Part shown: positions 7,459 through 12,045 of the stretch, in pieces
How positions within the stretch are numbered: position 1 is the first letter of the stretch
How the letters are laid out: each line of letters opens with the position of its first letter
Assembly: GCF_000016605.1 (NCBI RefSeq)
Contig: NC_009440.1
Location: 682,001-746,000 of the forward strand
Direction: 5' to 3'
From: Metallosphaera sedula DSM 5348
GTDB lineage: Archaea; Thermoproteota; Thermoprotei_A; Sulfolobales; Sulfolobaceae
DNA length: 64,000 bases
The notes under the pieces: model-generated
What the model was told of the DNA's origin: nothing
What the model saw: the letters and a program-made list of their open reading frames with translations, nothing else
The model's database searches: none
Made by a program: the position numbers and the translations under genes

Positions 7459-7491
7459 CGCTTTTAAGGTTTTACAGTGAAGACTGAATAC

Positions 7492-7935
7492 ATGGTGGAT
7501 GTAGGTCAGCCCGCACCCGATTTTGAGGCTGAGGGTTCAACGGGAAAGGTTAGTCTATCCAGTCTAAGAGGAAAGAAGGTAGTACTCTACTTCTATCCCA
7601 AGTCATTTACGCCTGGATGTACAAGGGAGATACAAAGGTTCGTGGAACTCTACGACGAGTTTATAAAGGCTGGAGCTGAGGTCATAGGAGTCAGTGTCGA
7701 CTCTGTGAGTACTCAGAAAAGGTTTAGCGAGAAGTATGGTGCAAAGTTCCCAGTCGTTTCCGATCACGAGAAAAAGATTTCATCGTCCTATGGTGTCCTC
7801 AACGAAAAGGGCACGAGCGCACAAAGGGTCACCTTTGTGATAGACGCCCAAGGCGTGATTAGGGCGGTTCTCAGGAATTTGAAAAAAGCGGAGGATCACG
7901 CTGATAGGGCACTTGAAGAAGTAAAGAAAATATGA
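7492..7935 (+). CDS. Peroxiredoxin, Bcp/PrxQ type
   Basis: This thiol peroxidase of the Bcp/PrxQ group reduces hydroperoxides. The peroxidatic cysteine is in [18 protein letters not shown] (about residue 43 from the chosen start), with the Thr and Arg of the active site also present. The usual resolving Cys five residues later is replaced (C-TREI-Q), so this is a one-Cys-type variant. A TATA-like CTTTTAAGG at 7461-7469 lies about 25 nt before the ATG at 7492, which favours that leaderless start over the upstream GTG at 7477. Its promoter abuts the divergent ppcA gene. Confidence 0.9.
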
Positions 7936-8040: not shown

Positions 8041-9537
8041 TCAACTAGAAATAACCCTTCTGTACGGCCTCTCCTTAAAGGCTGTAATCGGGTCATTTAG
8101 TACCTTGGGAATTCTAGATACTACGTCAGACGCTGTCAGGTGTGCCCCTAGTTCCCTATAGGCTAGGGTGCCAGAGAGACTATTCACAAGCGCTCCTAAT
8201 CCAGCTGAAATGTAGGGTGAATACCCCTGTGCCATAAAGGTCGCAATGATCCCCGTAAGTGTGTCCCCTGTTCCTCCTGCAGTCATTCCAGGATTTCCAG
8301 CCTTGTTAAGCCTAAAGGAATACCCATCACTTATGATGTCTAGATAACCCTTCAGGAGCACAACGCAGTTACAGGTTCTAGCCTTCTCCACGACCTGGTT
8401 AATCCTTTCTCTTTCGTTCTCCTTCTGTTCCTCGCCAAAGAAGATCTTAAATTCCCCTGGATGAGGGGTAATGACCACGTTCTTTGAAAGCTTTGAACCC
8501 TTCATTATCTTCAGGCCATCAGCGTCTAGCACGAGGGGTTTCCCAAGTCTCATTACCATTTCCACGAATGTTGGGGTTGCCTTGACAGTCTCCTCCTCTA
8601 GGCCCAGGCCAGGCCCGAAAACCACAGCGTTGGCCTTCTCCACCCACGGTCCTAGCTCCTTGATGTTACTCTCGTTAAAGTTCCTCCCAGAGAGCTTAAC
8701 CGCAATTAGATCCGGAGAGTAGCTGGAGATAGCCTCCGCCGTTCTCTCGGGAGAGGCCACGTATACCAGGTCTGCCCCAGTCCTCAAGCTAGCTAACGCC
8801 GATAGGGCTGGCGCACCCGAAAAGGTTGAGCTTCCCCCCACAATTAGAACCCTCCCTCCTACACCTTTTCTGCTTCTCATGTCTCTTTGCTTAAGCGTCA
8901 GAAGATCTCCCGGTCCCATGTAAATTGATGCCTCTGGAGGAATGCCTATCTTCTTAACCACGTACTTAAAGTTGTACTTCAAAAGTCCTGGTTTCACGTC
9001 GTGGAATGTAACCACGAGATCTGGCGAGACAAACTCTCCTAGGGCCTCTCCAGTATCTGGATCTATCCCCGAGGGAACATCTATTGCCACCTTGAAGCCC
9101 TTGGACGCATTGAAAAGCGAGATGGCATGATTAAATGGATATCTCACCTTTCCCCTCACTCCCGTCCCCAGCATGGCATCTACGAGCACATCCGCCTTTA
9201 GTGGGGAATCTAGGTCGTCTATCCTTAATACCCTCACAGAGAAGTCCATTTCTTCCAGAGCCCCATAGTTCACTAGAGCGTCCCTGTGCTTGATTTCGCC
9301 CATGGTAATCACTGTCACGTTGGCTCCCCTATCGGCCAGATGTCTCGCCGTAACCAGCCCATCACCACCCTTCCCACCGTGGCCCACAAACACAATGACG
9401 CTCAGGGAACTTGTCCCCATCTCCCTCTCTATCTCGTCTGCGACCGATCTGCCAGCGTTTTCCATGAGTTGTAGTGTGGAAACGCCAAACGCCTCGGAGT
9501 TAATCTCCAGGACTCTCATCTGAGAAGAGGTGATCAT
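8041..9537 (-). CDS. nnr: Bifunctional NAD(P)HX epimerase / ADP-dependent NAD(P)HX dehydratase
   Basis: This repair enzyme restores hydrated NADH and NADPH. The N-terminal YjeF_N epimerase domain (about residues 1-210) has FVGHGGKGGDGLVTARHLADRG for nucleotide binding and AIDVPSGIDPDTGE. The C-terminal carbohydrate-kinase-like dehydratase domain (about 225-498) has the catalytic Asp in NPGMTAGGTGDTLTG. The total length, 498 aa, is standard for the fused protein. The 31 nt before the start separate it from a C/D-box RNA candidate on the same strand, so the two may be transcribed together. Confidence 0.93.
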   Translation of the reverse strand: MITSSQMRVLEINSEAFGVSTLQLMENAGRSVADEIEREMGTSSLSVIVFVGHGGKGGDGLVTARHLADRGANVTVITMGEIKHRDALVNYGALEEMDFSVRVLRIDDLDSPLKADVLVDAMLGTGVRGKVRYPFNHAISLFNASKGFKVAIDVPSGIDPDTGEALGEFVSPDLVVTFHDVKPGLLKYNFKYVVKKIGIPPEASIYMGPGDLLTLKQRDMRSRKGVGGRVLIVGGSSTFSGAPALSALASLRTGADLVYVASPERTAEAISSYSPDLIAVKLSGRNFNESNIKELGPWVEKANAVVFGPGLGLEEETVKATPTFVEMVMRLGKPLVLDADGLKIMKGSKLSKNVVITPHPGEFKIFFGEEQKENERERINQVVEKARTCNCVVLLKGYLDIISDGYSFRLNKAGNPGMTAGGTGDTLTGIIATFMAQGYSPYISAGLGALVNSLSGTLAYRELGAHLTASDVVSRIPKVLNDPITAFKERPYRRVISS

Positions 9538-9778: not shown

Positions 9779-10489
9779 ATGACTCTGGGAAAGGAAACCG
9801 AAATGGGTCTAAAGGAACTTTTCAAGGCAAATGCTGAGGATTATATGCTCCTCAGCTTCCTAGCTGACAAGTTGGAGGCTGCAGGCAAGAAGGAGGAGGC
9901 TAAGGTTCTCAGGGAAAAGGCGAGGGTAGAGTTTGGACACGCTAGAGGGATATTCGAGAAGCTCTACATGCATGCCGGCAATTCCATGCTCAACGAGTTC
10001 ACCAGGGAAGAGGCAGAGGAACACGTCAGCGAGTACAACAACGTAGCCATGAAGGCTAAGGCAGAGGGCCACATGGACGTAGAGGCCATGCTGTGCGCCT
10101 ACGCTGAGCAAGAGAAGGACATCGCAGAGGCAACAAAGAGAGTCTCGGCCATGCTCAACGAGTTCACCAGGGAAGAGGCAGAGGAACACGTCAGCGAGTA
10201 CAACAACGTAGCCATGAAGGCTAAGGCAGAGGGCCACATGGACGTAGAGGCCATGCTGTGCGCCTACGCTGAGCAAGAGAAGGACATCGCAGAGGCAACA
10301 AAGAGAGTCTCGGCCATGCTCAACGAGTTCACCAGGGAAGAGGCAGAGGAACACGTCAGCGAGTACAACAACGTAGCCATGAAGGCTAAGGCAGAGGGCC
10401 ACATGGACGTAGAGGCCATGCTGTGCGCCTACGCTGAGCAAGAGAAGGACATCGCAGAGGCAACAAAGAGAGTCTCCAAGGCACTTTAA
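9779..10489 (+). CDS. Rubrerythrin/ferritin-like four-helix protein with a triplicated C-terminal hairpin
   Basis: The protein resembles short rubrerythrin-like ferritin-fold proteins. Helix A is KELFKANAEDYMLLSFLADK and helix B contains ExxH in VEFGHARGIFEKL. Then comes a helix C-helix D hairpin (TREEAEEHVSEYNNVAMKAK and DVEAMLCAYAEQEKDIAEAT). In this gene that 55-residue hairpin occurs three times, giving 236 aa against about 126 for one copy. Helix D has EQEK where a ferritin-like protein would have ExxH, so di-iron binding is not certain. A peroxide or metal role is a family inference. The ATG at 9779 is favoured because a TATA-like AGTTTATTAG lies about 35 nt upstream. No rubredoxin domain is present. 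Confidence 0.75.
   Translation: MTLGKETEMGLKELFKANAEDYMLLSFLADKLEAAGKKEEAKVLREKARVEFGHARGIFEKLYMHAGNSMLNEFTREEAEEHVSEYNNVAMKAKAEGHMDVEAMLCAYAEQEKDIAEATKRVSAMLNEFTREEAEEHVSEYNNVAMKAKAEGHMDVEAMLCAYAEQEKDIAEATKRVSAMLNEFTREEAEEHVSEYNNVAMKAKAEGHMDVEAMLCAYAEQEKDIAEATKRVSKAL
9984..10476 (+). repeat. Exact 165-bp coding repeat, about three copies
   Basis: Copies begin at the ATG-containing positions 9986, 10151 and 10316, exactly 165 bp apart. I could find no base difference between copies over the 493 bp. The period is a multiple of three (55 codons), so the frame is kept. Identity at all synonymous positions implies very recent amplification or ongoing gene conversion; an assembly artefact is the alternative. 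Confidence 0.95.
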
Positions 10490-10566
10490 ATCTATTTTAT
10501 TTTTCCTTCTGTATTACCCTTTAGTTGCCGAAATCGTTTTTATCCTTCCGAGTTCTTTATCTAGTA

Positions 10567-12045
10567 ATGGTTATTGGCTACGTTATAGGTGAGGCCACTC
10601 CTCAGGAAGCCCTAATGCTTGCTGAAAAGCCCGTGAGAGCGGGTAGATATGTGGTCTTGGAGTACGACGGGGTGAAGGTCCTAGGTCTGGTCACCTCTGT
10701 GACCAGGGGAAGCCCCCTCCTCGATCTAACCCTAAACGATATCAAGATTGTTCAGAAATTGAAGAACTTGGATACATCTATTCCTCAGTTCGTTAAGGCG
10801 AAGATAAAGCTCCTTCACGACATGATGTCAGGTACCATACCAGACCTTCCGCCAGGTCCTGGAACTCCAGTCCGTTTCGCCGAGGAAGATGAGCTCAGGG
10901 ATATCTTCTCCGATGGTGATGTAATGATAGGTTCTGTTATAGGAATGAATATTCCCGTGAAGATAAGAGTTAACTCCCTTTCGAGGCACTTGGCTATCCT
11001 CGCTGCCACAGGTAGCGGAAAGTCGAATACTGTCGCGGTTCTTTCCCAGTCCCTTGCGTCCATTGGTGGCTCAGTTGTCATTTTTGATTACCATGGTGAG
11101 TATTACGGCTCCGATATAAAGCCTCTAAATAATATTGAGCCTAAGCTAAATCCTTTACATCTAAAACCCAAGGAGTTTGCAACACTTTTAGAAATTAGAC
11201 CCAATGCCACTATACAGTATAGATTTTTAAGGAATGCTTTCGTGTCCTACATTGACGGGTTGAGGGAGAGACTGAAGGAAGGGAATGTGGACTACAACAT
11301 GCTTAACTCGGAGTTTGTAAGTGAGCTCGAGAGAGAGATAGACGAACAACTTAAGGACGAGAAGCAAAGGTCTCAAAGAGAAGCCGCGGACGAGGTGAAG
11401 AACAAGCTTGAGGAGTTCGTTGATAGGTACGGGGACGTGATTGACCTGACAGTTCCTGACATCACCACTAGGATAAGGCCCTCTTCAGTTAACGTGGTGG
11501 ACATAAGTCACATGGATGAGGACGCGATGGATGCCGTTGTGTCCCACTACTTGAGAAGACTCCTCGATTCAAGGAAGGAGTTTAGACATAAGGGGACGGG
11601 TCTAGGTTTTCCAGTTGTTGCGGTAATAGAAGAGGCACATGTTTTCCTGTCAAAGAACCAGGACACCCTCACGAAATATCACGCCTCAAAGATCGCCAGG
11701 GAGGGCAGGAAGTTCGGGGTCAGTATGGTTATAGTGAGCCAGAGACCTAAGGGGCTAGATGAGACCATTCTAAGTCAAATGACTAACAAGATCATTCTGA
11801 GGATGGTAGAGCCCACGGATAAGAAGTACGTGCTTGAGGCCAGCGACAACCTTACAGAGGATCTCGTTGAACAGTTATCCTCGCTAGGTGTTGGGGAGGC
11901 CATAATGATAGGCAACTTGGTTAAGTTGCCTGCATTTGTAAGGATTTCAAGGTTCACAGGTAGGCTAGGTGGATCGGACCCCGACATTAGGGGTGAGTGG
12001 AGCCACTTCCTTAACGCTAGGAATGTTGACGCCGAGTTTGGGTGA
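10567..12045 (+). CDS. herA: HerA bipolar DNA translocase
   Basis: HerA is a hexameric FtsK-like ATPase that pumps DNA and works with the nuclease NurA and with Mre11-Rad50 in 5'-end resection of double-strand breaks. The N-terminal HAS-barrel (about residues 1-100) is followed by Walker A in LAATGSGKSNT (about 140), Walker B in VVAVIEEAHVF (about 355) and an Arg-rich sensor region (IVSQRPKGLDETILSQ). I chose the ATG at 10567, matching the family N-terminus MVIGYVIGEATPQ; the longer frame adds 14 unlike residues. The stop overlaps the mre11 GTG by 3 nt in GTGA, indicating translational coupling. Confidence 0.96.
   Translation: MVIGYVIGEATPQEALMLAEKPVRAGRYVVLEYDGVKVLGLVTSVTRGSPLLDLTLNDIKIVQKLKNLDTSIPQFVKAKIKLLHDMMSGTIPDLPPGPGTPVRFAEEDELRDIFSDGDVMIGSVIGMNIPVKIRVNSLSRHLAILAATGSGKSNTVAVLSQSLASIGGSVVIFDYHGEYYGSDIKPLNNIEPKLNPLHLKPKEFATLLEIRPNATIQYRFLRNAFVSYIDGLRERLKEGNVDYNMLNSEFVSELEREIDEQLKDEKQRSQREAADEVKNKLEEFVDRYGDVIDLTVPDITTRIRPSSVNVVDISHMDEDAMDAVVSHYLRRLLDSRKEFRHKGTGLGFPVVAVIEEAHVFLSKNQDTLTKYHASKIAREGRKFGVSMVIVSQRPKGLDETILSQMTNKIILRMVEPTDKKYVLEASDNLTEDLVEQLSSLGVGEAIMIGNLVKLPAFVRISRFTGRLGGSDPDIRGEWSHFLNARNVDAEFG

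Follow-up and report, generated by a model that had tools for sequence, protein, structure and literature searches.

The array gene and its surroundings

The window analysed here is a stretch of 64,000 nucleotides from the genome of Metallosphaera sedula DSM 5348, and all positions given below refer to it unless stated otherwise. On its plus strand, at 9779..10489, lies a gene for a protein of 236 aa that consists of one helix A-B hairpin followed by three helix C-D hairpins. The A-B hairpin (residues 1-67; 9779..9979, plus strand) is present in a single copy and carries an E51xxH54 motif, while the C-D hairpins 1, 2 and 3 are each encoded by one copy of a 165-bp repeat (9984..10148, 10149..10313 and 10314..10478, all plus strand). 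Exact identity stops at about 10476 and is followed by a unique C-terminus, KAL. Tandem Repeats Finder describes 9984-10476 as an array of period 165 with 3.0 copies, 100% matches and no indels, and a repeat search recovered the three units at 100, 100 and 99%, the last value reflecting only the final bases of the third unit, at the end of the array. Over a 150-nt core there is not a single nucleotide difference among the three copies, 17 fourfold sites included, and the units are in frame within the gene. The earlier note on this DNA had described three in-frame, base-identical units of some 165 bp, and both the Tandem Repeats Finder result and the core comparison confirm this.

The length of 236 aa follows from the ATG at 9779, which opens a conserved M-x-LGKETEMGLK that is common to those relatives in which the two parts of the gene are fused; an alternative upstream TTG start, taken from the automatic ORF list, would give 246 aa. 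A one-copy form of the gene would encode about 126 aa, and the natural one-copy relatives L017 and L018 have 127 aa, so that the size contrast previously proposed (236 aa against about 126 for one copy) is upheld by these relatives and by the conserved start. The tandem-repeat background was taken from 780 kb of the 2,191,517-base, single-contig M. sedula genome. In this sample the array at 9984-10476 is the top-scoring one and only one other perfect long tandem array occurs; a chance origin can therefore be set aside.

The gene sits beside HerA-Mre11-Rad50, in a synteny that is conserved across the family. Its conserved neighbours include a peroxiredoxin of the Bcp type (AhpC-TSA; 7477..7935, plus strand), an NAD(P)H-hydrate epimerase/dehydratase-like gene that we call Nnr from a reading of its sequence (8041..9537, minus strand) and, downstream, a HerA-like helicase (10570..12045, plus strand), named from its synteny with SSO2251 and given an upstream TTG start at 10525 in the automatic ORF list. 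PEPC, Bcp, Nnr, HerA, Mre11 and Rad50 flank the locus, wholly or partly, in 18 of the 20 neighbourhoods compared; the remaining two are matches to the A-B part only.

Two further open frames deserve mention. A 193-aa frame runs antisense to the array (9860-10441 of the window, minus strand), and it should not be counted as a gene because repeats with a length divisible by three leave such frames uninterrupted. Elsewhere in the same genome, outside the window, about 11 perfect tandem copies of a 42-bp unit occupy L133:5037-5494 (C1:512037-512494). They encode the 14-residue unit VQGGESGGQRVESR in the frame of a 272-aa ORF that immediately follows a ParA-like gene, and its product may be a partner protein of the segregation type whose linker has been homogenised.

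Predicted fold and ligand residues

The A-B hairpin together with the first C-D hairpin (AB+CD1, 126 aa) is predicted by AlphaFold2 to form a four-helix bundle (pLDDT 93.5, pTM 0.80), from an alignment that held three rubrerythrin/sulerythrin rows and may thus draw the model to that fold. The model matches sulerythrin and the rubrerythrin of B. pseudomallei with Z scores of 12.9-13.5 over 125-126 residues (VIA-align 2); helical matches at Z of about 13 can be generic, and here the next unrelated rows score about 10 while the rubrerythrin/sulerythrin rows cover the full length. The Foldseek TM values against sulerythrin chains are 0.81-0.86. On the basis of these models we are confident in placing the predicted AB+CD module in the ferritin-like superfamily, with a rubrerythrin/sulerythrin fold. 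The model and the fold matches also bear out the earlier proposal that helix C-D hairpins had been added to a rubrerythrin-like four-helix protein. Comparing predicted structures by copy number, as had been suggested, succeeded for the one-copy form and failed for the three-copy one: the full 236-aa AlphaFold2 model is poor (pLDDT 57, pTM 0.39) and was left unused for hairpin packing.

Compared with sulerythrin (Sulfolobus/Sulfurisphaera tokodaii, PDB 1j30) and the PF02915 family, the predicted fold is alike and the ligand set is substantially altered. An alignment with the rubrerythrins L088, L105 and L106 indicates that the first ExxH (E51xxH54) and the helix-D Glu (E112) are kept. The helix-A Glu is replaced by Asn (N18), the second ExxH has become E112xxI115 in 63/63 units, and the helix-C Glu positions correspond to the variable residues 81 (E/Q/A) and 84 (S/D/A). 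The residues invariant in all 63 repeat units, from 29 genomes, are Glu78, His82, Tyr86, Glu96, Glu102, Cys106, Glu112 and Ile115, and it is His82 and Cys106, along with the repetition of the hairpin itself, that further distinguish this protein from sulerythrin and PF02915. A C-terminal rubredoxin-like domain is also absent, the protein stopping just after repeat 3. The label "rubrerythrin-like" that the protein had been given thus holds for the fold and not for the diiron chemistry. Several canonical diiron ligands are missing throughout the family, so the suggestion that an extended bundle could change metal stoichiometry, if taken to mean a standard diiron site, set out from the wrong starting point.

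The PF02915 profile has no match in the protein above its curated cut-off, and genome-wide it finds three other loci and not the array gene. Pfam and NCBIfam scans of the 236-aa protein returned no credible family. The sole Pfam match above the cut-off, DUF3240 (PF11582, E 3.6e-5), was rejected, as it straddles two repeat units, covering part of each, and is out of phase with the hairpin. The same genome encodes, at L106 (C1:252400-253500), a separate sulerythrin-type rubrerythrin of 152 aa with both ExxH motifs; the repeat protein is hence not the standard rubrerythrin of the cell.

Distribution and gene architecture

When 60 related genomes were searched with the protein, the gene turned up in 31 of them, all belonging to one family, and a profile search placed the locus in 31/31 genomes of this family, the Sulfolobaceae, and in 11/11 of its genera. 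Among 398 sampled genomes of the phylum, those outside the family yielded nothing beyond weak rubrerythrin-type matches (E 1e-7 or worse), and no relatives were found on viral contigs or plasmids. Homologues in the Thermoplasmata have been suggested in two papers (PMC1852104, PMC1995220).

Where they can be counted, the C-D hairpins number from 1 to 4 per family genome, and counts from draft assemblies may be too low, as identical repeats collapse in assembly. Fused genes with three copies occur in M. sedula, M. javensis, G001 and G011, and one with four in G003. Two copies are found in G005, M. yellowstonensis, two Aramenus-like genomes and seven genomes of genus g6, and a single copy in two genomes of g9. 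The names M. javensis and M. yellowstonensis and the designations Aramenus-, Saccharolobus- and Sulfolobus-like are putative, some of them being taken from named loci. One-copy loci are represented by L017, L018 and L030. Close species differ in copy number, and the comparison across other Metallosphaera that the earlier note had proposed reveals variation between species, with 2-4 copies in five others. The total number of hairpins in nature is accordingly both even (2, 4) and odd (3, 5).

In six genera (g2, g3, g4, g8, g10 and g11) the gene is split: the C-D array, with 1 to 3 copies, is a gene of its own beside the A-B gene, and the latter carries another, unrelated-looking second hairpin. 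The idea that this hairpin is a decayed C-D hairpin was rejected when a profile comparison found no similarity. In both g3 genomes with a visible pair (L025, L026) the array gene lies on the strand opposite the A-B gene, implying that the two halves were parted by rearrangement. One genome, G023 (71% complete), shows the A-B gene only. A tree of neighbouring genes, whose deep branches are weakly supported, does not resolve the split and the fused forms into two simple clades.

Concerted evolution of the hairpin copies

Within the arrays of Metallosphaera there are no nucleotide differences per 150-nt core in five species and one in the sixth (G005), whereas a comparison between species finds 8-30 nt of difference over this core, with 4-13 of 14-17 fourfold sites changed, a divergence of the same order as that of the single-copy A-B part. 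Each Metallosphaera unit is most closely related to another unit of its own array. The copies are thus more alike within the protein than to their counterparts in the orthologues of other species, which is the mark of a homogenised tandem protein repeat as defined in PMC5120217. The borders of the array agree within about 3 nt across the six species, and this argues for inheritance of the array, followed by homogenisation in each species on its own. Given these shared borders and the presence of the array in most of the family, the multiplicity is old, and what is young is the sequence identity alone. Very probably, then, the array predates the genus Metallosphaera and its copies have repeatedly been made identical within lineages, i.e. 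by concerted evolution; with the same high degree of confidence we regard it as functional and ancestral, a tandem run of half-domains in which each unit is the helix C-D hairpin of a protein with the rubrerythrin/sulerythrin fold. The earlier note had invoked very recent amplification or gene conversion; conversion survives as the cause of the identity, and very recent amplification does not.

The arrays outside Metallosphaera are informative about the process. Identical or near-identical arrays also occur in G011, G007, G016, G022 and G014, and such arrays are found in genera g3, g7 and g10. The Saccharolobus-like genomes have two partly diverged copies in place of the three identical ones of M. 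sedula. There, as in the Sulfolobus-like genomes, the diverged copies mostly resemble the copy at the same position in a sister species best, and the divergence within an array is interrupted by long stretches of identity that begin and end abruptly, a pattern resembling gene conversion. We compared 15 two-copy arrays outside Metallosphaera with codon shuffles, counting only degenerate codons that encode the same residue in both copies. The identical tract was longer than the shuffles give in 12 of the 15 (p ≤ 0.01) and in one more at p 0.016, with the reservation that codons were treated as exchangeable, so that a constrained synonymous stretch could inflate the result, and that the 12 are not 12 independent events because sister species share ancestry. 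The two arrays without a significant tract are those of G020, where the copies show no synonymous difference that the test could use, and of G006, which is diverged throughout. Since only same-residue codons were counted, protein conservation alone cannot explain the tracts, and the divergence of G006 along its whole length argues against synonymous constraint. The tract borders differ, for example between G010 and G019, which suggests more than one conversion. Each copy is under selection, as E78, H82, Y86, C106 and E112 are kept in 63/63 units and the G006 pair differs synonymously at 27 codons and non-synonymously at 7.

Could these patterns have arisen otherwise? A single, very recent triplication in M. 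sedula alone would account for the zero copy-to-copy differences at all sites, but it is hard to reconcile with the five other Metallosphaera species that carry 2-4 copies with the same borders, with the identical or near-identical arrays of three further genera, or with a locus that is universal in the family, and we consider it very improbable. Nor is it credible that the array is an assembly artefact: assemblies are well known to go wrong at exact repeats, yet many independently assembled genomes carry the array, with species-specific sequence, differing copy number and, in some, 2-4 identical copies. Selection on the protein or on codon usage, holding the copies identical without any DNA exchange, would fit the strong conservation of the unit between genera. 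Under such selection it would be difficult to understand why synonymous sites are the same within arrays and different between species, or why one unit uses three Ala codons and two Glu codons placed identically in all copies; 27 of the 42 degenerate same-residue codons differ between the G006 copies, and these data refute the idea.

A more serious contender is that arrays collapse to one copy and re-expand in each lineage, by birth-and-death through unequal crossing-over and not by gene conversion. Copy number does vary between close species, one-copy species do exist, and re-duplication after loss in each species would likewise yield identical copies. The common borders in Metallosphaera make such re-duplication less likely, and the partial identical tracts in diverged two-copy arrays need conversion, so that we regard this alternative as rather unlikely. 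The two mechanisms can act together. Concerted evolution of this old array probably proceeds by intra-gene recombination, as gene conversion in two-copy arrays and as unequal crossing-over or slippage where the copy number changes.

Function and significance

Judging by its position, the orthologue of the array gene in Saccharolobus solfataricus is SSO2253, which occupies the same locus between a Bcp peroxiredoxin and HerA-Mre11-Rad50. According to a single proteomic observation from 2007, nickel raises SSO2253 in S. solfataricus, along with its neighbour Bcp3 and other proteins (PMC1995220). In the accessible text of that paper this "hypothetical protein" is already called ferritin-like, with weak similarity to rubrerythrin, and its description there makes no mention of tandem hairpins. 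The nickel induction together with Bcp3 and the ferritin-like label favour a role of the repeat protein in metal or oxidative stress, which seems to us plausible if not quite probable. As to how it might work, the A-B hairpin would pair with one C-D hairpin to form a four-helix bundle, and the further hairpins would pair mutually or with hairpins of another chain; the existence of odd hairpin totals would fit with hairpins of different chains pairing in those forms. Every extra hairpin would bring an invariant Glu/His/Cys/Glu set and so more sites per chain, although that each hairpin does add a metal or redox site is put forward only tentatively. Equally speculative is the broader view that the whole family has a metal-stress protein with one half of its ferritin-like bundle turned into a modular cassette: its number varies, recombination keeps its identity and the array is separable as a gene of its own, while a His/Cys/Glu site might replace the lost diiron site and chain length might tune the number of metal or redox sites.

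Polyubiquitin genes are an example of homogenised intragenic protein repeats. Such repeats (surveyed in PMC5120217) are likewise tandem in-frame units that are closer within a gene than between species. The present, archaeal case differs in that its unit is half a globular fold of the metalloprotein type, that copy numbers can be odd or even, and that six genera have the array on a separate gene. Our literature search found no paper describing the hairpin repeat and none using the guessed Msed locus tags. Concerted evolution within this protein is real, well supported and undescribed in the literature searched. It provides a clean natural archaeal case of concerted evolution inside a single globular protein, with species that span the homogenised state, partial conversion tracts and complete divergence. 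The rate of intra-gene conversion in thermoacidophilic archaea thereby becomes accessible to test, as does the question of what a fold gains from having an odd or an even number of copies of its second hairpin. For the Sulfolobaceae themselves, the analysis singles out an uncharacterised gene, present in all 31 genomes, whose product may hold a non-standard metal or redox site.
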